DNA from: Deltaproteobacteria bacterium | GTDB lineage: Bacteria > Desulfobacterota > DSM-4660 > Desulfatiglandales > Desulfatiglandaceae | Direction of reading: 5' to 3' | Assembly: GCA_021737785.1 (NCBI GenBank) | Contig: JAIPDI010000007.1 | Coordinates: forward strand, 62,001-126,000 | Length of the DNA stretch: 64,000 nucleotides | Shown: positions 38,681 through 64,000 of the stretch, piece after piece | Numbering within the stretch: position 1 is the first letter of the stretch | Layout: each line of letters opens with the position of its first letter | Translations under genes and position numbers: made by a program | The notes under the pieces: model-generated | Databases searched by the model: none | Told to the model about the DNA's origin: nothing | What the model saw: the letters and a program-made list of their open reading frames with translations, nothing else

Positions 38681-40024
38681 TCACGACTTCTGCCTTGATT
38701 GATTTCTATAGAGTCGCTCGAGCATCTGAATCGGCATGCCGCCAAGGAATCCCAGGATCATGACCTGATTCACAAGAGTTGTGCGAACGACCCCCAGATG
38801 TTGCCAGCGCCGTGCCGAGGTGATGGCCGCATCGGAAAGCGTGACAATCCTGCCGCGAATGCGAAGGCGACGCATCAACACGAAATCCTCCATGATGGGC
38901 ATGGGAGGGAACCCGCCCATCTCGTCAAAGACCCTTTTTTCGAGAAAGAGCCCCTGGTCTCCATAGGGCAGTTGAACCACGCGGGACCGAAGGTTGGTGA
39001 CCCATTCGACCAGTCGCATGCCGGGGCTGTCCTCGTCCGTCTTGAAACGGAATGCGCCCCCTGCTATCGAAGGATCATCCAGGGCCGCGCGGATCTTGCC
39101 GGCATATCCTTCGGGCGGCAGCGTATCGGCATGGAGAAAGAAGAGGATACGCCCCCGGGCAATGGCGGCGCCGGCGTTCTGCTGAAAGGCCCGGCCCCCG
39201 GATACCTCCAACACGGTTGCCCCGGACCGGGCCGCCATGTCACGGGTGCCATCGTCGCTCCCTCCGTCTGCTACGATACGTTCGATTTTCTCTGAAAGCA
39301 GCAGACGATCCAGCAGGCGATTGATCGTGCGATATTCATTAAGGGTCGGAATAATAACGGAAACCAAGGGCCCGCCCGAAAACAGATCCGAGAAGCGGGG
39401 GTCCGTGCGAAGGGGCCCCAGGTCCTCGGGACGATCTACATCCTGAAGAACCGGGAGATCCGCGCAGGTGAGACCCAGAGACCGGATACGGCTGCGCGTT
39501 TGTTCATATACCCGGCCGGTTCCCCAATCAATAGGGTCAAATACGCCCGGAAATGGAGATCTCATCCCGATAAGGTAATACCCCCCGTCAGCGGCCCGGC
39601 CCAGGACCACGTCGTTCCCCCGAAGGGCTTGGAGCGTCTGATGAAGGATATCGGAGGTGATCCCGGGCACGTCCGTACCGACCAAAACAGCAGGCCCGGC
39701 CCCTTTTTGAAAAACCCTGTCAAAGGCCCGTGCCATTCGGGCGCCCAGATCCCCAGTGCCCTGCGGCGCATATTGGAAATCCATCCCCAGCCAGGTCCGG
39801 AAGTCCCTTCTGGAGGCGCCGGTATAACAGATGGTGATTTCCACGCCGGTTCCTGTTTCTTCGGCATCTCTTACCCCACGGGCAACGCCCGCCACATGCT
39901 CTGTCATCCGCCGGTGCAGCCGGGCCGATCCCCCAGGTCCCAGGGCCCGGACCAGACGCGTCTTGACCCTGCCCGGAACAGGGTATCGGGCAAGTATGAG
40001 AATGTGGGGGATCCCGGACGTCAT
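38681..40024 (-). CDS. Fusion of DUF2064 (TIGR04282-like) and family 2 glycosyltransferase (TIGR04283-like)
   Basis: The protein of about 447 residues joins two domains that are usually separate genes. Residues about 1-205 match the nucleotidyltransferase-like DUF2064/TIGR04282 ('HILILARYPVPGRVKTRLVR', 'VLVGTDVPGITSDIL', 'GRAADGGYYLIGM'). Residues about 215-440 form a GT2 domain ('VSVIIPTLNEYRTINRLLDRL', 'RIVADGGSDDGTRDMAARSG', 'LFFLHADTLPPEGYA', 'PYGDQGLFLEKRVFDEMGG'). In some annotations these are called arsenosugar biosynthesis glycosyltransferases. No arsS or arsM is in the window, so another surface sugar is equally possible. ATG 40024 is preferred to an upstream start at 40093. Confidence 0.9.
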   Translation of the reverse strand: MTSGIPHILILARYPVPGRVKTRLVRALGPGGSARLHRRMTEHVAGVARGVRDAEETGTGVEITICYTGASRRDFRTWLGMDFQYAPQGTGDLGARMARAFDRVFQKGAGPAVLVGTDVPGITSDILHQTLQALRGNDVVLGRAADGGYYLIGMRSPFPGVFDPIDWGTGRVYEQTRSRIRSLGLTCADLPVLQDVDRPEDLGPLRTDPRFSDLFSGGPLVSVIIPTLNEYRTINRLLDRLLLSEKIERIVADGGSDDGTRDMAARSGATVLEVSGGRAFQQNAGAAIARGRILFFLHADTLPPEGYAGKIRAALDDPSIAGGAFRFKTDEDSPGMRLVEWVTNLRSRVVQLPYGDQGLFLEKRVFDEMGGFPPMPIMEDFVLMRRLRIRGRIVTLSDAAITSARRWQHLGVVRTTLVNQVMILGFLGGMPIQMLERLYRNQSRQKS

Positions 40025-40426
40025 GGCGTAACAATGTGATGAAAAGTCCAATGACCTATTCAAAACCCTCAAAGAAGCGGCATCTGAAATCATTTGTGGC
40101 GTTCCCGGACAGAATGGCAGGCTCCTTTAAAATAATGGCTTTTTTCCATTATTTAATGTTATCCTAATTCAAAGGACCTGTCCATAGGGTCCGGAACACC
40201 GTCCTTTGGACGGTCACCGGGGGTGGACGGGAAGGGGTCGGAGGGTCTGGTTTACAGAAGCCCTCCTTATCCATCCGGCATCCTGGGGAACGGCCCGTGA
40301 GTTCTTGTCAAAGGAGGAAATTTCAAGTATCTTTGGATAGGAATTTGCAATTTTCTTCTTGACTTGGCTAACTGGTTTCTATAAATTGATAAATTCATTT
40401 TTTGTTGAAAAGGAGCGGGGCGTACC
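40025..40426. other. Intergenic region upstream of rplU with hairpins
   Basis: About 400 bases without a gene. It holds a perfect hairpin AAATAATGG / CCATTATTT around a CTTTTTT loop (40130-40154), which may be a bidirectional terminator. A second GC hairpin, ACCGTCC-TTT-GGACGGT (40198-40214), lies farther on. The rplU promoter lies at the right edge. Confidence 0.6.
40359..40385 (+). promoter_or_regulatory. Candidate promoter for rplU-rpmA-obgE-proBA-nadD
   Basis: TTGACT (40359-40364) and TATAAA (40380-40385) are 15 bases apart, slightly shorter than ideal. The rplU ATG lies 42 bases after the -10 box. Confidence 0.4.
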
Positions 40427-54008: not shown

Positions 54009-55502
54009 ATGAAAATCGTCCTGGTTTCCATGCCCGATGTGGCCCCCGTGATCATGCACGAGTCCGCCTTCCATATGCCGAACCTGGGCCTGGCCAGCCT
54101 GGCCGCCAACCTTGACGACGGACATGACGTTCGCATCGTCGATCTTATCCGCAAGCGCCGCAATGTCCGTAAATATCTCGGCCGTATCCTTTTAAGTTTC
54201 CGTCCGCAAGTGGTCGGGCTCTCCTGTATGACCTGGCAATATGCCACATGTAAAAAACTGATCAAGCTGATCCGCCAACTCCTACCGGAAGTGAAAATCG
54301 TCCTTGGCGGTTACCACGCCACGCTCATGTATGCGGAAATCGGCGAATCGGAAAGCGGAAAGCTGCTCGATTTCTTGGTCCGGGGTGAAGGTGAAGATAC
54401 CTTCCGCCGGTTGATCAGGGTTCTGGAAGGCAAAGAACATGTTGAGGATATCCCATCGGTCTCCTACCACACCGGGGCCGGGTTTGTGCACAACCCTAAG
54501 GGGGAGCTGCTTGACCTGAAAACGCTAAAACTGCCTGTTCGGGACAAAAGGCGGCTTACCTGGGGCTACCACATTATGAACCGTAGTTCGGAGGTTATCG
54601 AGACCTCCCGGGGATGTCTGCGCAACTGCAACTTCTGCAGTATCCGGCACATGTACGGCCGGGCGTTTCGATCGTTCCCCATTGAAAGGATCCTGGCAGA
54701 CATAGACGATATCTACTATAAACGACGTGTCCGTTGGATCTTCGTATCAGACGACAACTTCGTCATGATTCCGGAAAGGGTCACGGAGTTGTGCGACGCC
54801 ATCATTGCCCGCAAGTACCGCAACCTTGTCCTGGTGGTCCAGGCAGACTGCGTGACCATCGCCCGCAATGAAGCGATGGTCCGAAAGATGTCCCGGGCCG
54901 GATTCAAATCCCTTTTCCTGGGGATGGAAAATGTTTCAAAGAAAAACCTGCAGATCGCTAAGAAAGGCGATATCGTCGACGCGTCGCGTAAAGCGATCGC
55001 CCTTTGCCACAAATACGGCATCATGATAGTGGGCGGGATGATCTTCGGATTCCCGGACGATGGGGAACAGGAGATCATTGACAACTATGAATTCCTGAAA
55101 TCCACCGGGGCCGACACCGCTTATTGCCAGATTCTTACCCCATATCCCAAGACCGACATCCGTCAGTACCTCCTGGACAACGACCTGGTGACCAACCGCT
55201 ACGACTACTCCCGTTACAACGGCATGTGGGCCAACGTAAAAACCCGGCATATTTCTTCCGATACCCTGCAGTATTTGGTCTGGTATCACAACCAGAAAAT
55301 TATGGGTTGGTGGGAACCGTCGGAAAGGATGCAAAAGCAAGCCCGTCTCTGGACCTCCATCTGGCTCTATTGCTTCAGGCCCCTGATGAAAATCCTGGTA
55401 GCCCGGGCTCAGAGAAAGTACGGCTGGAGAGGGCGTTTTGAAAGGGAGATCGCAGGGCGGAAGGCTGTGAACAGGTTCCGGGACTTGGATGACTTCACTT
55501 AG
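54009..55502 (+). CDS. B12-binding radical SAM protein
   Basis: The 497-residue protein has a cobalamin-binding N-terminal domain (about 1-140, 'PNLGLASLAANLDDGHDVRIVDL', 'VVGLSCMTWQY', 'KIVLGGYHATLM') and a radical SAM core with the cluster motif 'CLRNCNFC' near residue 202-209. 'GMENVSKKNLQIAKKGD' and 'GIMIVGGMIFGFPDDG' are typical strands of the barrel. The C-terminal part 'HNQKIMGWWEPSERMQKQARLW' resembles hopanoid-type (HpnJ/HpnP-like) members. The substrate is unknown. It stands alone with no operon partner. Confidence 0.88.
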   Translation: MKIVLVSMPDVAPVIMHESAFHMPNLGLASLAANLDDGHDVRIVDLIRKRRNVRKYLGRILLSFRPQVVGLSCMTWQYATCKKLIKLIRQLLPEVKIVLGGYHATLMYAEIGESESGKLLDFLVRGEGEDTFRRLIRVLEGKEHVEDIPSVSYHTGAGFVHNPKGELLDLKTLKLPVRDKRRLTWGYHIMNRSSEVIETSRGCLRNCNFCSIRHMYGRAFRSFPIERILADIDDIYYKRRVRWIFVSDDNFVMIPERVTELCDAIIARKYRNLVLVVQADCVTIARNEAMVRKMSRAGFKSLFLGMENVSKKNLQIAKKGDIVDASRKAIALCHKYGIMIVGGMIFGFPDDGEQEIIDNYEFLKSTGADTAYCQILTPYPKTDIRQYLLDNDLVTNRYDYSRYNGMWANVKTRHISSDTLQYLVWYHNQKIMGWWEPSERMQKQARLWTSIWLYCFRPLMKILVARAQRKYGWRGRFEREIAGRKAVNRFRDLDDFT

Positions 55503-55654
55503 GGCCATGCGGACGTCCAGAAAACGCCGGCCCAATGAAGGCACCCTCTGGCGTACATGCCGGTAAGAAAGGATGATTGACAGAATCTTACTCTTCCTCT
55601 ACCTTGAATACCATCAATGAATTTAACCAGAATATGTCGTGTGGAGAAGAGCTG

Positions 55655-55924
55655 ATGGAAACCTGTTCATCCAAAGTTACATCAAAGGGTCAGGTTGTAA
55701 TCCCCAAAGGGCTCCGGGAGAAATATGCCATTGTTCCTGCTACGAGAATCCGGTGGGTTCCCATTAAGGAAGGTATTCTGATGGTGCCGGAATCTGCTGA
55801 TCCAATACGGGCGGCAAGGGGCATGTTGAGGGGGTCTGCTATATTGAAGGCGTACATGAAAGAAAAAAAACGCGAGATGGAGCGGGAGGAGGGGAAGCTT
55901 GGCAAAGGGATATGTGCTGGATAG
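55655..55924 (+). CDS. AbrB/SpoVT-type antitoxin (VapB-like)
   Basis: The ATG at 55655 gives a protein of 89 residues opening with 'SSKVTSKGQVVIPKGLREKYAI', the swapped-hairpin AbrB DNA-binding signature. The C-terminal tail is charged ('KEKKREMEREEGKLG'). GGAGAAGAG precedes the ATG; the longer frame from 55577 is not used. The 3' end overlaps a truncated toxin frame at 55899. It would bind its own promoter and block the toxin. Confidence 0.82.
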   Translation: METCSSKVTSKGQVVIPKGLREKYAIVPATRIRWVPIKEGILMVPESADPIRAARGMLRGSAILKAYMKEKKREMEREEGKLGKGICAG

Positions 55925-56228: not shown

Positions 56229-56615
56229 ATGGACAGGATTGTCGCTCATTGGGTCGAAAGAGCCGAATATGATCTCGATACAGCAAAGGCGATGCTGGAC
56301 GCAGGCCGTTATCTTTACGTTGGGTATATGTGCCAGCAGGCGATTGAGAAGCTGCTGAAAGCGATCATTGCGAATCAAAATAAAGAAAACCTGCCGATAC
56401 ACAATTTGAATCGGCTTTCAGATGTTGCCGAGATTTCGTCTTTATTGAGTTCGGATCAGGTTATATTCCTGGCGGAACTGACTCCGTTTTGTATTGAAGC
56501 GCGTTACGGAGATTTCAAGGAGAGTCTGTCCGAAATCATCGATAATGAAAAGGCGCGAGCCATCTATCAAAAGACTCGGGAGATGTTCCAGTGGCTTTAT
56601 CAAAAAATCAGGTAA
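56229..56615 (+). CDS. HEPN domain protein (HepT-like partner of MNT)
   Basis: The 128-residue protein is an all-helical HEPN domain of the PF05168 type: 'HWVERAEYDLDTAKAML', 'YVGYMCQQAIEKLLKAII' and 'EARYGDFKESLSEIIDNEKA'. The 3' end overlaps the MNT gene by 25 bases. I do not see the canonical R-x4-6-H ribonuclease motif, so a toxic RNase activity is uncertain. The pair is arranged like known HEPN/MNT toxin-antitoxin systems. Confidence 0.85.
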   Translation: MDRIVAHWVERAEYDLDTAKAMLDAGRYLYVGYMCQQAIEKLLKAIIANQNKENLPIHNLNRLSDVAEISSLLSSDQVIFLAELTPFCIEARYGDFKESLSEIIDNEKARAIYQKTREMFQWLYQKIR

Positions 56616-56944
56616 ATGAGATTATCAAGGGCTTTGTCTCCAGGCTGATGCGCGACATCCCTGTGGACGAGGTGATCCTGTTCGGTTCTTACGCCCATGG
56701 AACCCCTGAGGAACACAGCGATATTGACCTTGCCGTTATTTCCGACTGGTTTCGAGATAAGACGCGCATTGAAGGCATGCAGTATCTATCCCGGATTGCG
56801 GCACGGTATAACACAATGATTGAGGCGATACCGTTTACCACCGAAGAATATAAGAACTTGGATAAAAGGACCTTTTTGGGCGCCATCGTGAGGAGAGGGA
56901 AGCCCTATCACATTGACGCCGATGATCTTGTTTCACCTGAATAA
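56591..56944 (+). CDS. MNT-type nucleotidyltransferase (antitoxin-like)
   Basis: The 117-residue protein starts at GTG and carries 'GSYAHGTPEEHSDIDLAV', the GSx10DxD active site of minimal nucleotidyltransferases (MntA-like). A third acidic residue lies in 'YNTMIEAIPFT'. MntA proteins can AMPylate their HEPN partner to neutralise it. The start overlaps the HEPN gene. Together with repeats B and C it forms a compact module. Confidence 0.88.
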   Translation: MALSKNQVNEIIKGFVSRLMRDIPVDEVILFGSYAHGTPEEHSDIDLAVISDWFRDKTRIEGMQYLSRIAARYNTMIEAIPFTTEEYKNLDKRTFLGAIVRRGKPYHIDADDLVSPE

Positions 56945-57677: not shown

Positions 57678-59156
57678 CTAAGCTACCGCGCACATGCTGT
57701 CAATTAGTTCGCTTACTCCAACAGTTGCTATACCGGATGTAATGTCAGACATGCCATAGGGAATGACCAGGTCGCTATTGTGGAAAATCGCACCGCAGGT
57801 ATAAACGACATTGGGGACATACCCCTCGCGCTCTTCCTCATTCGGGGTAAGTAACGGCTCTTCAAGGCGGGCGACGACTCTTGCCGGGTTTTCAAGATCG
57901 AGCAGCATGGCGCCGATGCAATACTGCCGCATGGGCCCGACGCCGTGGGTGAGCACGATCCAGCCTTTATCGGTTTCCAGGGGGGATCCGCAGTTGCCGA
58001 TCTGGATGAATTCCCAGGGATATTCAGGCTCCTGGATGATTTGGGTCTCCTGCCAGAAATGGATATTGTCTGAGAACATGATATGATTATTTTCACCGTC
58101 CTGGCGGGAAAGCATAACGTAGCTGCCGTCAATTTTGCGCGGGAAAAGAGCCATGCCCTTGTTTTTTACTGCTTTGCCGTTGAGGGTGATCACTTTAAAT
58201 TTGATAAAATCCTTTGTTTCAATCATCTGCGGGAGGATTGTGAAACCGTTATAAGCCGTATAGGTCGCATAATAGGTGACTTCACCGTTGTCATCAAAAA
58301 ATTGCACGAACCGGGCGTCTTCAATGCCGCTGCTTTCGTTTTTCGAAACAGGAAAAATAACCCGTTCGGATATTCGGTGATGGGGATGGAAAGCCACCTC
58401 ATAATTAGAATTGGCAAGCCAGTACATGATTTCGATGGCTTGGTTCTGGCGCTCCTCAAAGAAAATGGGTCTTGCGCGAAGCGCTCCGATTTTTTCTTTT
58501 AATTCATTATAGGTGAAATCTTCCGGCAACTGGCCAAGAATATGCGCTGTTACCTCATCGCAGGCCTCCATTTCATTGAGCTTCAGCTGGAAGAGATGCC
58601 GGTCGTAAACCGCATTTAAACGGACGTCCGGCCTCTCGACATAATCACTGGTCGGGTCGAAGATAAACGTATTGTCCCGGTCAAGGACGCCACTTCGAAA
58701 TACAATAGAGGACACATGCCCTTCGCCGATTGCCCGCAGGCTCATGATAAAGCGCAGGCTGCCTTTGTCCAGATGGCTCTGATCAGGGTGGAGAACGATC
58801 GAAGGGTTGAAAAGGGCAGCCGATTCAATGGAGTACTCCATGGTAAAATAGGCCCCGATGAGAGCCCTTTTCGTCTCGCTTAGCACGACATCCCGAGGAA
58901 CATGATCTCTTACCTCATTCAGGCTACGCTCAAAAACGCGTCTGATGTCTTTGTGCCGCTCGGAAAAATCAAGCATTATTTGTGCAAAAAGATCTTCGGC
59001 CGTCGTGTCAGGCAAGTCCGCTATGCGTTGAATGATTTTGGGTATGCGATTCGCATCGCTGGGAATATGAGGGCGGGTGATCACCCGTGAAGTATCCCCT
59101 ACGATCTTCTTCGCTTTTCTTCTAACTTTCAGCTTTTGACGCTTTTCAGGGTGCAT
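57678..59156 (-). CDS. GH130-like glycoside phosphorylase, long form
   Basis: The 492-residue protein is a five-bladed propeller of the GH130 type. 'NESSGIEDARFVQFFDDNGE' contains the catalytic Asp-bearing 'G(V/I)ED.R' motif, and 'YATYTAYNGFTILPQMIE', 'GNCGSPLETDKGWIVLTHG' and 'GYVPNVVYTCGAIFHNSD' are standard blocks. An N-terminal helical part of about 180 residues is an extra, not usual in the family. GH130 enzymes phosphorolyse beta-mannosides. It is last in the four-gene locus and 129 bases after the shorter GH130 gene. Confidence 0.9.
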   Translation of the reverse strand: MHPEKRQKLKVRRKAKKIVGDTSRVITRPHIPSDANRIPKIIQRIADLPDTTAEDLFAQIMLDFSERHKDIRRVFERSLNEVRDHVPRDVVLSETKRALIGAYFTMEYSIESAALFNPSIVLHPDQSHLDKGSLRFIMSLRAIGEGHVSSIVFRSGVLDRDNTFIFDPTSDYVERPDVRLNAVYDRHLFQLKLNEMEACDEVTAHILGQLPEDFTYNELKEKIGALRARPIFFEERQNQAIEIMYWLANSNYEVAFHPHHRISERVIFPVSKNESSGIEDARFVQFFDDNGEVTYYATYTAYNGFTILPQMIETKDFIKFKVITLNGKAVKNKGMALFPRKIDGSYVMLSRQDGENNHIMFSDNIHFWQETQIIQEPEYPWEFIQIGNCGSPLETDKGWIVLTHGVGPMRQYCIGAMLLDLENPARVVARLEEPLLTPNEEEREGYVPNVVYTCGAIFHNSDLVIPYGMSDITSGIATVGVSELIDSMCAVA

Positions 59157-59285
59157 ATCATTGTGTCCTTAGTGTCGATTGATATTTAATACACTGCATC
59201 GTAAGTCTGTTCATCATGATAGACCTTCAATTCCAGCCTATCCTCGAAAATATTTTCCGGTCTGCGATCATCCGGCAATGATCGT

Positions 59286-60236
59286 CTACAGTGGCGGCCG
59301 GGAAACCGACAGACAAAGCTGTACCAGGTCATCAATTACCGCCGTACCGGCGCACATGACCGTATCCGCGCCGCCCCAGTATATTTTTACCGTACCGTCG
59401 TCTTCCGGAACAGCGCCGCAGGTAAAGACAACATTGGGGACATAGCCATTTACCTCCCAGGGGGCCTCGGGCTGCAATATCCACTGATCGGAAACGCCGA
59501 TGATGTTGGCCGGATCATCAAGGTCATGCAGGGCCGCGCCGAGGCGATACACTGTTCCGGACATTGTCTTAAAGACGCCATGGTAAATATGAAGCCAGCC
59601 TTTGTCGGTTTTAAATGGCGGTGCGCCGGGCCCGATTTTCATTTCATCCCAGTGATAGGCAGCCGGCTTCATAATTACTTTTGAGTCTCCCCAGTGAACC
59701 AGGTCCGGTGAATAGGAAATCCAGATCGACCAGGGCGAAATCTCCGAATGCGGCCGGTCCAAGCGCACATACCGGCCACCGAACTTTTCAGGGAAAATAA
59801 CCACGTTTCGAAGGTCGGCCTGGGTGATCAGCGCAATACGCTCAACTGTTTCAAAATCCCTGGTGCGTGCAAGGGCAATCCGAACGCCGTGACGGGAATA
59901 GGCGCTGTAGGTTAGAAGATGTTCGCCCTCTACGGGGTTTATGCGGAGATCCTCCACTCCGAATTCTTCATATTCCCCAAAAATGCTGTCCGTCGCCGGC
60001 GTGAGAAAGGGTTTGGGATGAACCGTAAATGAAAAACCATCCTCGCTGTCGGCCCTGCCGATGATGGAACGTCCGTTTAGCAGATGCGACCTGAAAAGCA
60101 TAATGTAACGATCGTTGTGCTTGACGATGCCCGCATTGTGAACGGTAGCGACGGGATACGGCACATCCTTTCTTGTCAGTATGGGGTTTTTCTCGTAACG
60201 CTTGATGATCGGCTCTTTAGACCCTGTTATAATCAT
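59286..60236 (-). CDS. GH130-like glycoside phosphorylase, short form
   Basis: The 316-residue protein is a compact GH130 propeller: 'EKNPILTRKDVPYPVATVHNAG', 'RADSEDGFSF', 'EEFGVEDLRINPVEG' with the catalytic Asp, and 'GAPPFKTDKGWLHIYHG'. Members of this length act as beta-1,4-mannooligosaccharide or mannosylglucose phosphorylases, releasing mannose 1-phosphate. No signal peptide is present, so it works inside the cell. Its start overlaps the end of the GT4-cupin gene by 20 bases. Confidence 0.93.
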   Translation of the reverse strand: MIITGSKEPIIKRYEKNPILTRKDVPYPVATVHNAGIVKHNDRYIMLFRSHLLNGRSIIGRADSEDGFSFTVHPKPFLTPATDSIFGEYEEFGVEDLRINPVEGEHLLTYSAYSRHGVRIALARTRDFETVERIALITQADLRNVVIFPEKFGGRYVRLDRPHSEISPWSIWISYSPDLVHWGDSKVIMKPAAYHWDEMKIGPGAPPFKTDKGWLHIYHGVFKTMSGTVYRLGAALHDLDDPANIIGVSDQWILQPEAPWEVNGYVPNVVFTCGAVPEDDGTVKIYWGGADTVMCAGTAVIDDLVQLCLSVSRPPL

Positions 60237-61569
60237 CCTCCGACCTCTCTATGTCATCCTCTCCAAAGTAGTCTCCTGTCTGGACTTCGATAAACACCAT
60301 ATCTTGCGAGCCTGGATTCCGAACGCGGTGCCAGGTTCCCACGGGCAGATCAATGGCCTGACCGGATACCCGTTCGATCTCTTCACCATTTTTGGTCACC
60401 ACCGCCTTGCCGCTGATCACGTACCAATGTTCGGAGCGCCGGAAATGACGCTGGTAACTTAAACGCCGGCCGGGGTAAACGTTGATGCACTTGACTTTGT
60501 GGTTCGGGGTGTCCGAAAGGATTTTATAAAACCCCCATGGCCGTTGGTCCTCACGTTTTGTCTTCTCAAGCACCTGTTCGTAGACGGCAATATATTTTTC
60601 TACCATGCGGTCAATGGTAAAATTGTCTTCCACTGTTTTTCGGCAGTATGCCCGGTCAATCCCTTTAACACGTTCAACCGCTTTGATTGCCTCGTCAGTG
60701 TTGGAAACCAGGAACCCGTTCTTTCCGTCCTGGATAAGCTCGGACATGCTGCCGCGGTTGATCGCAATAACCGGGGTGCCGCAGGCCATCGATTCAATAA
60801 CGGAAAGACCGAACGGTTCGTTGAAGTTTATGGGATGCAGCAGTGCAGCAGCCTTGCCCAGAAGATCATTTCGTTTTTCAGGACCGGCGCTTCCTACATA
60901 AATGACCTGCCGATCATCAATAAACGGCTTTACATGTTTTTTGAAATAGTCCTCATCCTGGATTATGCCCGCCATTACAAGCTTTCGCCTGCAGGCACGT
61001 GCAATCTCGATGGCCTCCTTTGCGCCCTTGTCATGGTGAAAGCGGCCAAAAAACAACAGATAGTCCTCCGGTTCGGGCCGAAAATCAAACTGACTTATGT
61101 CGATGCCATGATGGATGGTTTTGATATAATCAAGATCCGTCGATCGATCGGAATCGCTGATGGAAACATAAAACGCTTTGCCGTTGTATTTCTTGTAAAC
61201 CGGCAGAATCCCGGGCGATGAAAAGCCGTGAATGGTGGTCACCACCGGGGTGGCGGTCAGGCCGGTATAGGTCAGAGGCAGATAGTCAAAGTGGTTGTGG
61301 ATGATGTCGTATGCATCGGCATGCTCAAAGAGTTCTGAAATGTGCAGGCACTCCCAGACCTTTGGTATGAGTGAGCGCTCTTCTTCATAGCCCCGCGGGC
61401 AAACGGCATGCAACGTGCCGCTGGTTTGCGAATCCGCGGTTGCAAACAAGGTTACACCATGACCGCGCGCTACCAGCCCCTCGGTTAAAAGGGAGGCCAC
61501 GTTTTCCCAGGGCCCATAATGTCGCGGCGGTGTGCGCCAGGCAATGGGCGAGAGCATGGCAATGTGCAT
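60217..61569 (-). CDS. GT4 glycosyltransferase fused to a type II phosphomannose-isomerase cupin
   Basis: Residues about 1-335 form a GT-B glycosyltransferase (family 4) with 'YGPWENVASLLTEGLVARGHGV' at the acceptor side and the E-x7-E motif 'EPFGLSVIE' in the donor site. Residues about 341-450 match the C-terminal cupin of mannose-1-phosphate guanylyltransferase/phosphomannose isomerase: 'RPWGFYKIL', 'VKCINVYPGRRLSYQRHFRR', 'EHWYVISGKAVV' and 'VQTGDYFGEDDIERSEDDY'. This cupin carries the isomerase function in known proteins. The fusion points to mannose as donor sugar. It overlaps the GH130 gene and follows the large GT4 gene by 14 bases. Confidence 0.92.
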   Translation of the reverse strand: MHIAMLSPIAWRTPPRHYGPWENVASLLTEGLVARGHGVTLFATADSQTSGTLHAVCPRGYEEERSLIPKVWECLHISELFEHADAYDIIHNHFDYLPLTYTGLTATPVVTTIHGFSSPGILPVYKKYNGKAFYVSISDSDRSTDLDYIKTIHHGIDISQFDFRPEPEDYLLFFGRFHHDKGAKEAIEIARACRRKLVMAGIIQDEDYFKKHVKPFIDDRQVIYVGSAGPEKRNDLLGKAAALLHPINFNEPFGLSVIESMACGTPVIAINRGSMSELIQDGKNGFLVSNTDEAIKAVERVKGIDRAYCRKTVEDNFTIDRMVEKYIAVYEQVLEKTKREDQRPWGFYKILSDTPNHKVKCINVYPGRRLSYQRHFRRSEHWYVISGKAVVTKNGEEIERVSGQAIDLPVGTWHRVRNPGSQDMVFIEVQTGDYFGEDDIERSEDDYNRV

Positions 61570-61583
61570 GCCTGATCCTTTTG

Positions 61584-63890
61584 TTAATCCGTTTTCTGTG
61601 ACAATGGCTGGTTTAAAATCTCGTCGGCATAAAGCTTCTGCAATGTCATCAGTGAAAGCAGCCAGGCAAGGGAGGACTCGGCGCCTTCATTCTGGTTGAT
61701 GCCGTCCGCCATCAATCCATCTCGGCAGCCTCCGGTCTTGGGATCATAGAGCGGCAAGTTGAGGTCGTTGTGTCCAAGAAACCAATTGAAACACATGACC
61801 GCATTCTCAAACCATGTGTGGTCCCGGGTAACATTAAAGGCTTCGACACAGGCTTCGACCATGGCATTGGCTTCAATGGGCTGCTGGTCGAAACGGGCTC
61901 TGGGGCCGCCTTTTTCATACCAACCGGTGCTGCCGATGGGCACAAAGTGATTGTCTTCGGTTTGGATGGCAAGCAGCCACTTGAGGGAGTTGAGTCCCAT
62001 ATCGATCATGTCGTTGCGTTGCATCCGCTGACCGGACAGCAGCAGGGCATGGGGCAGTTTGCCGTTGGCATAGTTCAGGGTGTTCTCAAGCCAGGGCCAA
62101 TCGTCTGTTCCATTGTTTTTAAACTGATCGAAAAGCCTGTCGGCAAGAACTTCCCGGATCCTGCGCACTTCACTGTCGCCTGCAAATTCATACAGGTAGC
62201 CATGAATTCCAACCAGGGTAAAAGCGATGGCGCGGGGCGAATGAAAATTCTCGACAGCTCTCAGTGCCTTGTTGAAAAGGGTCGTGCTCACTGCGAGATG
62301 CCCGGGATTTTGAAGAAAAGCCAACGATTTGCCAAGGCACCAGAGCGTTCTGCCATGCGCATCCTCGGACCCGATCTCATCCATCCACTGTCGCGAATAG
62401 GTCATGAAATTGCGAAAGCGCCCATTTTTTTCATCATAGGCATACAGAAGAAACCCGAGATAATGATCGCTGAGAAGATCAAGCATCGAGCCGTTTGTTG
62501 GCAGGTATTTTTGACACATGGCGGCAACCAGCAGCGCTCTGGCATTATCATCGGTGCAGTAGCCATGGGTGCGATCGGGAATGGTATAGTTGGCATGTTG
62601 CAAGATGCCGGTATCATCGGTAAAGGCTTTCAGGTGATCGAGCTTGATCTCCGGGAGCTCGAAATTCGTGATGGCCTTGATGTTTTCAACATAGGAATAC
62701 CGGGGACGGGGGTTCCGGATCCTGTTCAGCTGAACCTCCCTGAATACCTGGAGATATTTTCGGGATACCTCCTTCCAGACTGCGTCGCGGCTGAACATAT
62801 AGGCTTTCTTACGCATGGCGTGCCGGTCGACATCGTTGTCCAGTAGGTCGATAATTTGTTCCGCCATGGCATCCGGATTGCGGAAGGGTACAATCCGGCC
62901 CCGATCTTCGGCAAGCATCTCGGTGGCATACCAGTACGGGGTTGAAATGACGGCTTTGCCTGTGCCCATGGCATAGGCAAGGGTCCCGGAGGTAATCTGG
63001 GCTTCTTCAAGATAAGGGGTTACGTAGATATCGGCGATGCCGAGAAACTCACATAGCTCTTTTATTTCAACAAAACGATTCTGAAAAATGACATACTCGC
63101 CGATATCGAGTTTGCGCACGAACTGCTGCAGCATGATGCGGTATGCATCGCCATGCAATTTCAAAATATGCGGATGTGTTGCGCCCAGGATAATATAGGC
63201 CACATCAGGGTGATTTTTGATGACCGCCGGAAGCGCCTGCAATACATTTTCAATGCCCTTATTTGGGGAAAGCAGGCCGAACGTGAGCAGCACCTTTTTG
63301 CCTTCCACACCGAACTTGTCTTTGTAGAAGCTGGGATCAATAAACGGCGTATCCGGAATGCCGTGATGGATAAAGACAATTTTTTCCTCGGGCACGGCAT
63401 AAATATCTTTGAGGAAGTCGGATGCCTTACGACTCATCACCACCAGTTTGTCGGACAGATCGGATAGCTTGCACATGACGTCACGATATTCCGGCGCGGG
63501 GTCTTTCAAAACCGTGTGTAACGTCGTCACCACCGGCATGCGCAGATCTCCCAATAGTTTCAGCAGATGGCTGCCGGCCGGACCGCCGAAAAGACCGTAT
63601 TCATGCTGCACGCAGACAATATCCGTCCGACTGATATTGAGAAATTGAGCTGCGACACTATAATCGGTCAACTTGTTCTGGTTGATCTCAAAGCGCACTT
63701 TTTCCGGGTATGGATATCCCTCAGGTTTATCATTCATGACAGCCGCCCAGCAGTGAATATCGGGGGCTTCCGCTGATAAGCCTTCAACCAGATCCGTGGT
63801 GAAGGTCGCGATACCACACTGGCGGGGCAGATAGTTGCCGATTACGGCAACCGAGTTGATTCCCTCATAATAGTTAATAACAGATGTCAT
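61584..63890 (-). CDS. GT4 glycosyltransferase with C-terminal toroid-like domain
   Basis: Counting from ATG 63890 the protein has about 768 residues. The first 390 form a GT-B fold with 'AVIGNYLPRQCGIATFTTDLVEGL', 'VCVQHEYGLFGGPAGSHLL', 'LLTFGLLSPNKGIENVL' and 'PYLEEAQITSGTLAYAMGTGKAVISTPYWYA'. The last 350 residues are helical and contain 'HGYCTDDNARALLVAAM', 'GSEDAHGRTLWCLGKSLAF' and 'WPWLENTLNYANGKLPHALLLSG', a pattern like an alpha/alpha toroid glycan-binding or -processing domain. It is first in the four-gene locus. An alternative TTG start at 63998 lies at the window edge. Confidence 0.88.
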   Translation of the reverse strand: MTSVINYYEGINSVAVIGNYLPRQCGIATFTTDLVEGLSAEAPDIHCWAAVMNDKPEGYPYPEKVRFEINQNKLTDYSVAAQFLNISRTDIVCVQHEYGLFGGPAGSHLLKLLGDLRMPVVTTLHTVLKDPAPEYRDVMCKLSDLSDKLVVMSRKASDFLKDIYAVPEEKIVFIHHGIPDTPFIDPSFYKDKFGVEGKKVLLTFGLLSPNKGIENVLQALPAVIKNHPDVAYIILGATHPHILKLHGDAYRIMLQQFVRKLDIGEYVIFQNRFVEIKELCEFLGIADIYVTPYLEEAQITSGTLAYAMGTGKAVISTPYWYATEMLAEDRGRIVPFRNPDAMAEQIIDLLDNDVDRHAMRKKAYMFSRDAVWKEVSRKYLQVFREVQLNRIRNPRPRYSYVENIKAITNFELPEIKLDHLKAFTDDTGILQHANYTIPDRTHGYCTDDNARALLVAAMCQKYLPTNGSMLDLLSDHYLGFLLYAYDEKNGRFRNFMTYSRQWMDEIGSEDAHGRTLWCLGKSLAFLQNPGHLAVSTTLFNKALRAVENFHSPRAIAFTLVGIHGYLYEFAGDSEVRRIREVLADRLFDQFKNNGTDDWPWLENTLNYANGKLPHALLLSGQRMQRNDMIDMGLNSLKWLLAIQTEDNHFVPIGSTGWYEKGGPRARFDQQPIEANAMVEACVEAFNVTRDHTWFENAVMCFNWFLGHNDLNLPLYDPKTGGCRDGLMADGINQNEGAESSLAWLLSLMTLQKLYADEILNQPLSQKTD

Positions 63891-64000
63891 AAGATGAGAT
63901 GAGATGATAAGAAGTCGCTTTTTTTGAGGATGAGATATAGCAGAAACGGGCTTGGGTGTCAAAGAAAATGTGACCACAAGATATTGGGGTTGCGACAAAG

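Follow-up and report, generated by a model that had tools for sequence, protein, structure and literature searches.

The window analysed here is a 64,000-nucleotide stretch from a Deltaproteobacteria bacterium (contig JAIPDI010000007.1, positions 62,001 to 126,000 of the forward strand). Its last 6.3 kb are occupied by a cassette of four consecutive minus-strand open reading frames (ORFs; 57678-63890), encoding, in transcription order, a glycosyltransferase with a toroid domain (GT4-toroid), a second glycosyltransferase fused to a cupin (GT4-C), a short GH130 and a long GH130. What is directly observed is the gene set itself, its fold or family assignments, the conservation of active-site residues and the recurrent linkage. 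From these we postulate a horizontally spread, cytosolic cassette that would make and recycle a small mannose-containing oligosaccharide, serving as a reserve or compatible solute; we put the chances of this interpretation at about even.

GT4-toroid (61584-63890) comprises 768 amino acids from the ATG at position 63890; its longest ORF spans 61584-63998, and the starts of orthologs favour 63890. It is followed by GT4-C with its phosphomannose-isomerase type cupin (60217-61569, 450 amino acids), the short GH130 (59286-60236, 316 amino acids) and the long GH130 (57678-59156, 492 amino acids). The genes are spaced, in order, by 14 bp, a 20-bp overlap and 129 bp, and this tight arrangement suggests a single transcript. 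The ORFs and Pfam matches confirm the preliminary description of this DNA, which had named two GT4 and two GH130 genes in a row, one GT4 carrying a cupin. Its placement of a mannoside module in the cytoplasm is likewise supported, as none of the four proteins has a hydrophobic N-terminal segment (highest Kyte-Doolittle mean over 17 residues in the N-terminal region, -0.09 to 0.95). The G+C content of the block is 51%, versus 54% for the window. The two cassette GH130s are the only PF04041 proteins found in the 5.33-Mb genome, and no match to the long GH130 is present in 5 sampled genomes of the same family.

The recurrence of this set, sometimes reordered, in distant phyla is more than chance. 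Among 297 genomes of the source phylum, a long GH130 of at least 50% identity occurs in 15, the source included. In 11 of these genomes the complete set sits together on a single contig, with contig ends cutting two of the 11; in one more, G072, the set is split over two contigs. A scan of species-representative genomes with the long GH130 gave at least 586 stretches with a relative, not all of which need encode the long form. The best 80 of the 586 and the phylum loci make up a set of 96 loci, in which partners were counted by tblastn within 7 kb. This sample was chosen by similarity to the long GH130 and says little about partner loss in more distant members. GT4-toroid lies beside the long GH130 in 74 of the 96 loci, in 32 of them as the only partner. 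The concern that the four genes might be scattered in relatives, raised in the preliminary description, is not borne out: all four lie within 7 kb in 34 of the 96 loci, in five gene orders (19, 6, 5, 3 and 1 loci), some of them divergent. The order of the genes breaks and their company stays. Where 6.5 kb or more is available on each side, which holds for 33 loci, GT4-toroid is found at 28, all four genes at 16 and none of the partners at 5. By record title, the 34 four-gene loci belong to Thermodesulfobacteriota, Pseudomonadota, Bacteroidota, Spirochaetota, Myxococcota, Melainabacteria and Acidobacteriota, with 12 lacking a named phylum; some phylum names derived from metagenome-assembled genomes may be wrong.

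The linkage is also seen from the side of GT4-toroid. Full-length copies (at least 600 bits) occur at 35 loci in 31 genomes of the phylum sample, and a GH130 is present on the same contig at 33 of them, within 10 kb at 31 and as a partial match recovered by Pfam search at 2 more. In many cases a GH130 other than the long form fills the partner role. Furthermore, the distances between loci measured with one of the four proteins correlate with those measured with each of the others (r 0.69-0.85; none of 999 permutations reached the observed value for any of the six pairs), a correlation to which shared host ancestry contributes. A tree from one protein, built by a quick method, mixes phyla, which alone is no proof of transfer.

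Beyond the cassette itself, no other protein cluster occurs in more than 6 of 92 neighbourhoods, the largest (6) being, by eye, an ABC ATPase. This neighbour-family count rests on ORF calls. Long antisense ORFs masked real genes (L037) in ORF-based linkage counts, which are too low, and the tblastn count was used instead. Locus L054, on the same contig as L037, and loci L051 and L052 were left out of the neighbour-family, distance-correlation, ORF-based linkage and tblastn counts, and L049, which has no long GH130, out of the neighbour-family, ORF-based linkage and tblastn counts; L086, L117, L118 and L132, for which the ORF-based linkage count kept no long-GH130 ORF, are included by tblastn. 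The neighbourhoods bear on the alternative that the genes synthesise a surface or extracellular polysaccharide or a glycolipid, in which the GH130s would do the trimming. Clusters of this kind often contain GT4 enzymes, and the weak, sub-cut-off NCBIfam matches include exopolysaccharide glycosyltransferases. However, inspection by eye of the clusters present in at least 3 of the 92 neighbourhoods revealed no family of exporters, polymerases or lipid carriers, and the annotated copy on plasmid pILYOP02 lacks genes of all three kinds; we regard this alternative as improbable.

In three loci (L039, L055, L056) the long GH130 is adjoined, by eye, by SIS-type isomerase-like, deacetylase-like, GT4-like and toroid-like proteins, the last of about 390 amino acids; this group is perhaps an extended form of the cassette. 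A GT4 of about 380 amino acids without a toroid recurs beside a GH130 (for example in G037, G050, G105 and G233; also L075 and L114), and GT4-GH130 linkage is broader than this cassette.

Plasmids carry the cassette as well. On pILYOP02 of the fusobacterial Ilyobacter polytropus, typed as conjugative, GT4-C, the short GH130, the long GH130 and GT4-toroid stand in a row at 47-74% identity and adjoin IS256 transposase and recombinase genes; further copies reside on other plasmids typed as conjugative. A match was present in 71 plasmid records, of which 12 were examined, 11 of them alphaproteobacterial. GT4-toroid directly precedes a GH130 in 9 of the 11, and in 7 the run also includes a mannose-related gene. 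These are a class I-type phosphomannose isomerase (PMI) in Devosia and Sinorhizobium, with family scores under the cut-off; a mannose-1-phosphate guanylyltransferase (GDP-mannose pyrophosphorylase, GMP) on three sphingomonad plasmids, where Pfam finds no PMI cupin in the one guanylyltransferase scanned; and an AGE-family epimerase in two rhizobial runs. The S. paeninsulae plasmid has a PMI gene at a distance of 1.3 kb from GT4-toroid, which is apparently broken and is situated 4.5 kb from the long GH130 on the other strand. The stretches viewed of two Novosphingobium copies and of Sphingobium WTD-1 contain no mannose-related gene; in the latter, the long GH130 lies without a GT4 in a copper-resistance region. 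Together with the fused cupin, mannose-related genes of four kinds (cupin, PMI, GMP and AGE-family epimerase) thus stand beside or are fused into copies of the cassette.

The long GH130 matches Pfam PF04041 (Glyco_hydro_130) over residues 260-488 (E 1.8e-35; 122.9 bits, cut-off 26) and contains helical insertions. Its structure model (mean predicted local distance difference test, pLDDT, 78.6) shows the five-bladed GH130 propeller and best matches the beta-1,2-mannobiose phosphorylases (5b0q; Z 31.6, root-mean-square deviation 2.4, 286 residues), with other GH130s trailing within a few Z units. Among 101 distinct long sequences, excluding two truncated duplicates, the Glu-Asp pair with the active-site Asp280, the following Arg (EDxR), Lys333, Arg351 and His404 are invariant. 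The catalytic Asp, which the preliminary description had allowed might be missing, is thus retained throughout, as it is in all 38 short sequences. Lys333 aligns with the Lys (NK) of Teth514_1788, Teth514_1789, Lin0857 and Uhgb_MS, the corresponding residues of the beta-1,4 enzymes RaMP2 and UhgbMP being R-N. A Lys (Lys199 of BT3780) is a beta-1,2 determinant in GH130 according to the available sections of PMC4599007. We take Lys333 for this determinant, its position being assigned via the four beta-1,2 enzymes and not BT3780.

The phosphate pocket of the long GH130 differs at one position in most sequences. We take Arg168, Lys212 and His231 to be the three basic phosphate-binding residues of UhgbMP, and position 385 of the long GH130 was placed on Lys212 by its offset from UhgbMP Asp104; the sections of PMC10619541 consulted do not name the phosphate ligands. 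This residue is Gln in 87 of the 101 sequences and Lys in 14, of which 11 are Verrucomicrobiota by record title; the other two basic residues of the pocket, Arg and His, are retained in all 101. Asp104 is named in PMC4599007, and in the GH130 hydrolases covered there glutamates replace the basic phosphate ligands; the long GH130 lacks these glutamates. The substitution at position 385 would fit an alternative in which the long GH130 is a transglycosylase, a hydrolase or a sugar-nucleotide transferase like GT108, the GT4-toroid/long-GH130 pair is biosynthetic only, and the short GH130 acts as the recycling phosphorylase. The structural closeness of Uhgb_MS, a GH130 relative named mannoside synthase (Z 30.5), and the frequency of loci with GT4-toroid as sole partner, in a sample picked by the long form, point the same way. 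We nevertheless consider this alternative unlikely: Lys is kept in the 14 sequences, the invariant Arg351 and His404 contrast with the Glu pair of the hydrolase BT3780, and no similarity to GT108 sequences is found at E<=0.001. Judged by these residues, the chemistry of the long GH130 may be that of a phosphorylase, a transglycosylase or a transferase.

The short GH130 matches PF04041 more strongly (E 6e-55; 186.9 bits, cut-off 26). Asp96, the active-site Asp, is invariant in 38 of 38 orthologs, as are Arg98, Arg143, Arg161, Lys200 and His219. The phosphate-pocket Arg, Lys and His are therefore all present, and we predict phosphorylase chemistry with fair confidence. The position equivalent to BT3780 Lys199 holds Arg143, not Lys, in every ortholog. 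Since the long GH130 has Lys at this determinant, the two GH130s probably act on different linkages. The preliminary description had further compared the proposed cycle with the Leishmania mannogen system and its GH130-related GT108 enzymes; a GT108 kinship of the pair is not supported. Both proteins are GH130-like, no MPT chain is among the matches to either at E<=0.001, and the Leishmania MPT (GT108) proteins reach Z 20-21 on the long GH130 model, versus 31.6 for its best GH130 match; a GT108 identity was accordingly rejected.

GT4-toroid consists of two domains. The N-terminal GT-B (GT4) domain (approximately 62721-63878, minus strand) is assigned from its fold and invariant columns, with Z 34-36 in a near tie among SPS Tll1590, BshA, MshA and PimA; by sequence, PimA and MshA are its best glycosyltransferase matches. 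Both glycosyltransferases of the cassette match Pfam Glycos_transf_1, and the GT-B fold was checked for GT4-toroid. The EX7E motif, a GT4 feature that is not universal, is not at its expected place in the GT4-toroid ortholog alignment; invariant columns form a Q-I-x-S-G-T-L-A-Y stretch. The C-terminal alpha/alpha toroid (approximately 61608-62681, minus strand) is recognised by its fold, the last 342 residues having no Pfam family at E<=1. It matches YPO2471 (7tem) in fold (Z 33.5) and by sequence profile (E 8.8e-16), and cellobiose 2-epimerases by fold only (Z 28-29). A plain AGE epimerase is not supported by Pfam, the likeness being one of fold, with no PF07221 match at E<=1. A phage origin was rejected, as neither the toroid nor the long GH130 has a PHROG match at E<=0.001.

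GT4-C comprises a glycosyltransferase domain (60568-61569) and a MannoseP_isomer cupin (60235-60567), both on the minus strand, the latter matching PF01050 (type II PMI) with E 2.3e-32 (112 bits, cut-off 23.6). Its closest solved relative by far is the glucosylsucrose synthase Tll1591 (TeGSS; 7fg9), which spans the whole glycosyltransferase domain (E 1e-78 with a single sequence, 5.6e-99 with a profile). In the alignment, Tyr18 and Arg179 of Tll1591 fall on Tyr18 and Arg176 of GT4-C, and the EX7E motif is present with E251 and E259 invariant. As this nearest relative is a UDP-glucose enzyme, glucose may also be part of the cassette product. No PF01050 match besides the cupin was found in the genome; the idea that the cupin is the sole PMI of the genome was ruled out by a class I ManA on contig C39. 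The claim that the cupin ties the locus to mannose holds in part. The link itself is strengthened by the GMP, PMI and AGE-family epimerase genes on plasmids, but the cupin is an accessory, since it is fused in just 14 of 45 GT4-C loci. Besides ManA, the source genome contains four PGM/PMM-type genes and a guanylyltransferase-like gene on contig C23, below its cut-off, and from these genes the host is predicted to be able to supply mannose phosphates.

The preliminary description had one enzyme pair make the bond that the other cuts, and this fails as written. GT4 enzymes are retaining, and a GT4 enzyme using GDP-alpha-mannose makes alpha bonds. GH130 phosphorylases, in contrast, convert a beta-mannoside and phosphate into alpha-mannose-1-phosphate with inversion (PMC4264767, in the sections available). 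A GT4 product is therefore not automatically a GH130 substrate, and because a simple make-and-cut pair is stereochemically wrong, we propose a mixed product with an alpha core from the GT4 enzymes and beta-mannosyl units handled by the GH130s. The cupin or another PMI would provide mannose-6-phosphate for mannose-1-phosphate and GDP-mannose. GT4-toroid, as a retaining GT4, would then make an alpha-linked primer glycoside, which GT4-C, where present, may extend or cap in keeping with its kinship to the alpha-1,2-glycosyltransferase glucosylsucrose synthase. The long GH130, with its beta-1,2-type Lys, and the Arg-type short GH130 would add beta-mannosyl units from alpha-mannose-1-phosphate, or take them off with phosphate as the cell recovers the sugar. 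The minimal unit would be GT4-toroid plus a GH130, which is the long form in the sampled reduced loci and another form at many phylum loci; GT4-C, the short GH130 and the mannose-supply genes would be add-ons. The cytoplasmic mannoside cycle of the preliminary description is thus kept in changed form, partly supported. A more specific version is a mobile, many-phylum pathway for an intracellular hetero-oligosaccharide with alpha- and beta-linked mannose, primed by the toroid GT4 and given beta-1,2-mannosyl units by the modified long GH130, as a bacterial counterpart to mannogen built from different parts and used as a reserve or stress solute; this we offer only tentatively, as a doubtful possibility.

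Two observations speak for a stress setting, namely the chaperone, Usp and Dps genes beside three sphingomonad copies and the kinship of GT4-C to a stress-oligosaccharide enzyme. Several points weigh against a shared mannoside product or its proposed role. The anomeric mismatch between alpha-forming GT4 and beta-specific GH130 enzymes requires the oligosaccharide to be mixed, the nearest characterised kin of GT4-C uses UDP-glucose and sucrose and not GDP-mannose, and the Gln at position 385 raises the possibility that the long GH130 works other than as a phosphorylase. At 14 of the 96 loci the surrounding 7 kb contain no partner gene; at 9 of them the flank is shorter than 6.5 kb on one side or both, and 5 are free of this limit. 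Two GT4-toroid genomes of the phylum sample are without any GH130 match. The three sphingomonad copies are related, forming one island with DnaK, GrpE, DnaJ, Usp and Dps genes that counts once, and the genes scanned next to the window locus included none recognised as a stress gene. Finally, the source genome also has GlgC, so that it probably possesses another reserve.

Among known systems, the Thermoanaerobacter Teth514_1788/1789 cluster is comparable. The available sections of PMC4264767 describe GH130 beta-1,2-mannoside phosphorylases with an ABC importer and a GH5, and read the cluster as salvage. Applied to the cassette, this alternative has the GH130s phosphorolyse imported beta-mannosides, the mannose-1-phosphate being converted to GDP-mannose. 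The parallels are two GH130s without signal peptide near a GT4 gene, together with a mannose-1-phosphate guanylyltransferase in the Thermoanaerobacter cluster, and a long GH130 that shares fold and beta-1,2 Lys with both Teth514 enzymes. Unlike the cassette proteins, however, the Teth514 GH130 chains have 303 and 313 residues in the PDB, and the same sections describe one GT4 and no toroid or cupin fusion. An importer and GH5 accompany the Thermoanaerobacter genes, whereas the commonest transport-like neighbour here, by eye, is the ABC ATPase of 6 of 92 loci; salvage would also leave GT4-toroid unexplained, and we judge it improbable for the cassette.

In Leishmania, GT108 proteins with a GH130 fold both build and cleave mannogen, a beta-1,2-mannan stored inside the cell as a reserve (PMC8950772, in part). 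The likeness to the cassette is one of role only, a possible analogy; the GT108 sequences are distant from the cassette GH130s. To our knowledge, the mannogen system has no known GT4 or toroid partners. The cyanobacterial tll1590-tll1591 pair, encoding SPS and glucosylsucrose synthase, similarly consists of neighbouring glycosyltransferase genes; the synthase adds alpha-1,2-glucose from UDP-glucose to sucrose, and this soluble oligosaccharide rises under salt or heat stress (PMC9909042). In the available sections no GH130 is described with the pair, and donor and acceptor are UDP-glucose and sucrose, unlike in the proposed cassette. The glycosyltransferase part of GT4-toroid fits the SPS fold no better than those of BshA or MshA. 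Like the BT3780-type hydrolases of PMC4599007 (available sections), the cassette GH130s have their active-site Asp in a Glu-Asp motif, and the long form also has the beta-1,2 Lys; unlike those hydrolases, which have glutamates and no phosphate-binding basic residues, they keep Arg and His. No description of a GT4-toroid/GH130 cassette was recognised in the open-access literature, judged by titles and the starts of abstracts, a scope that leaves aside subscription papers and preprints.

If the proposed cycle is correct, bacteria widely contain a solute or reserve sugar that has so far escaped notice. Many GH130 proteins now in annotations would then serve by nature to synthesise or recycle the cell's own sugar and not to break down dietary mannan, and the cassette would supply new enzymes for the beta-mannosyl bond, a difficult linkage.

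The surroundings of the cassette in the window include several further features. A HEPN domain gene (56229-56944, plus strand) overlaps a nucleotidyltransferase (MNT) gene, forming a toxin-antitoxin type pair convergent with the cassette, and a MazE-like gene lies nearby at 55577-55924. The pILYOP02 copy is likewise near HepT-like/DUF86 and nucleotidyltransferase genes. Just past the window end (L033 11160-12130, G000:C7), an IS200/REP-associated type transposase-like frame, identified by eye and apparently in two frames, adjoins the cassette. Elsewhere in the window, a B12-binding radical SAM protein (54009-55502, plus strand) has BchE as its nearest NCBIfam, far under the cut-off. A single protein at 38681-40093 (minus strand) fuses the arsenosugar-biosynthesis glycosyltransferase families TIGR04282 and TIGR04283, each above its cut-off.

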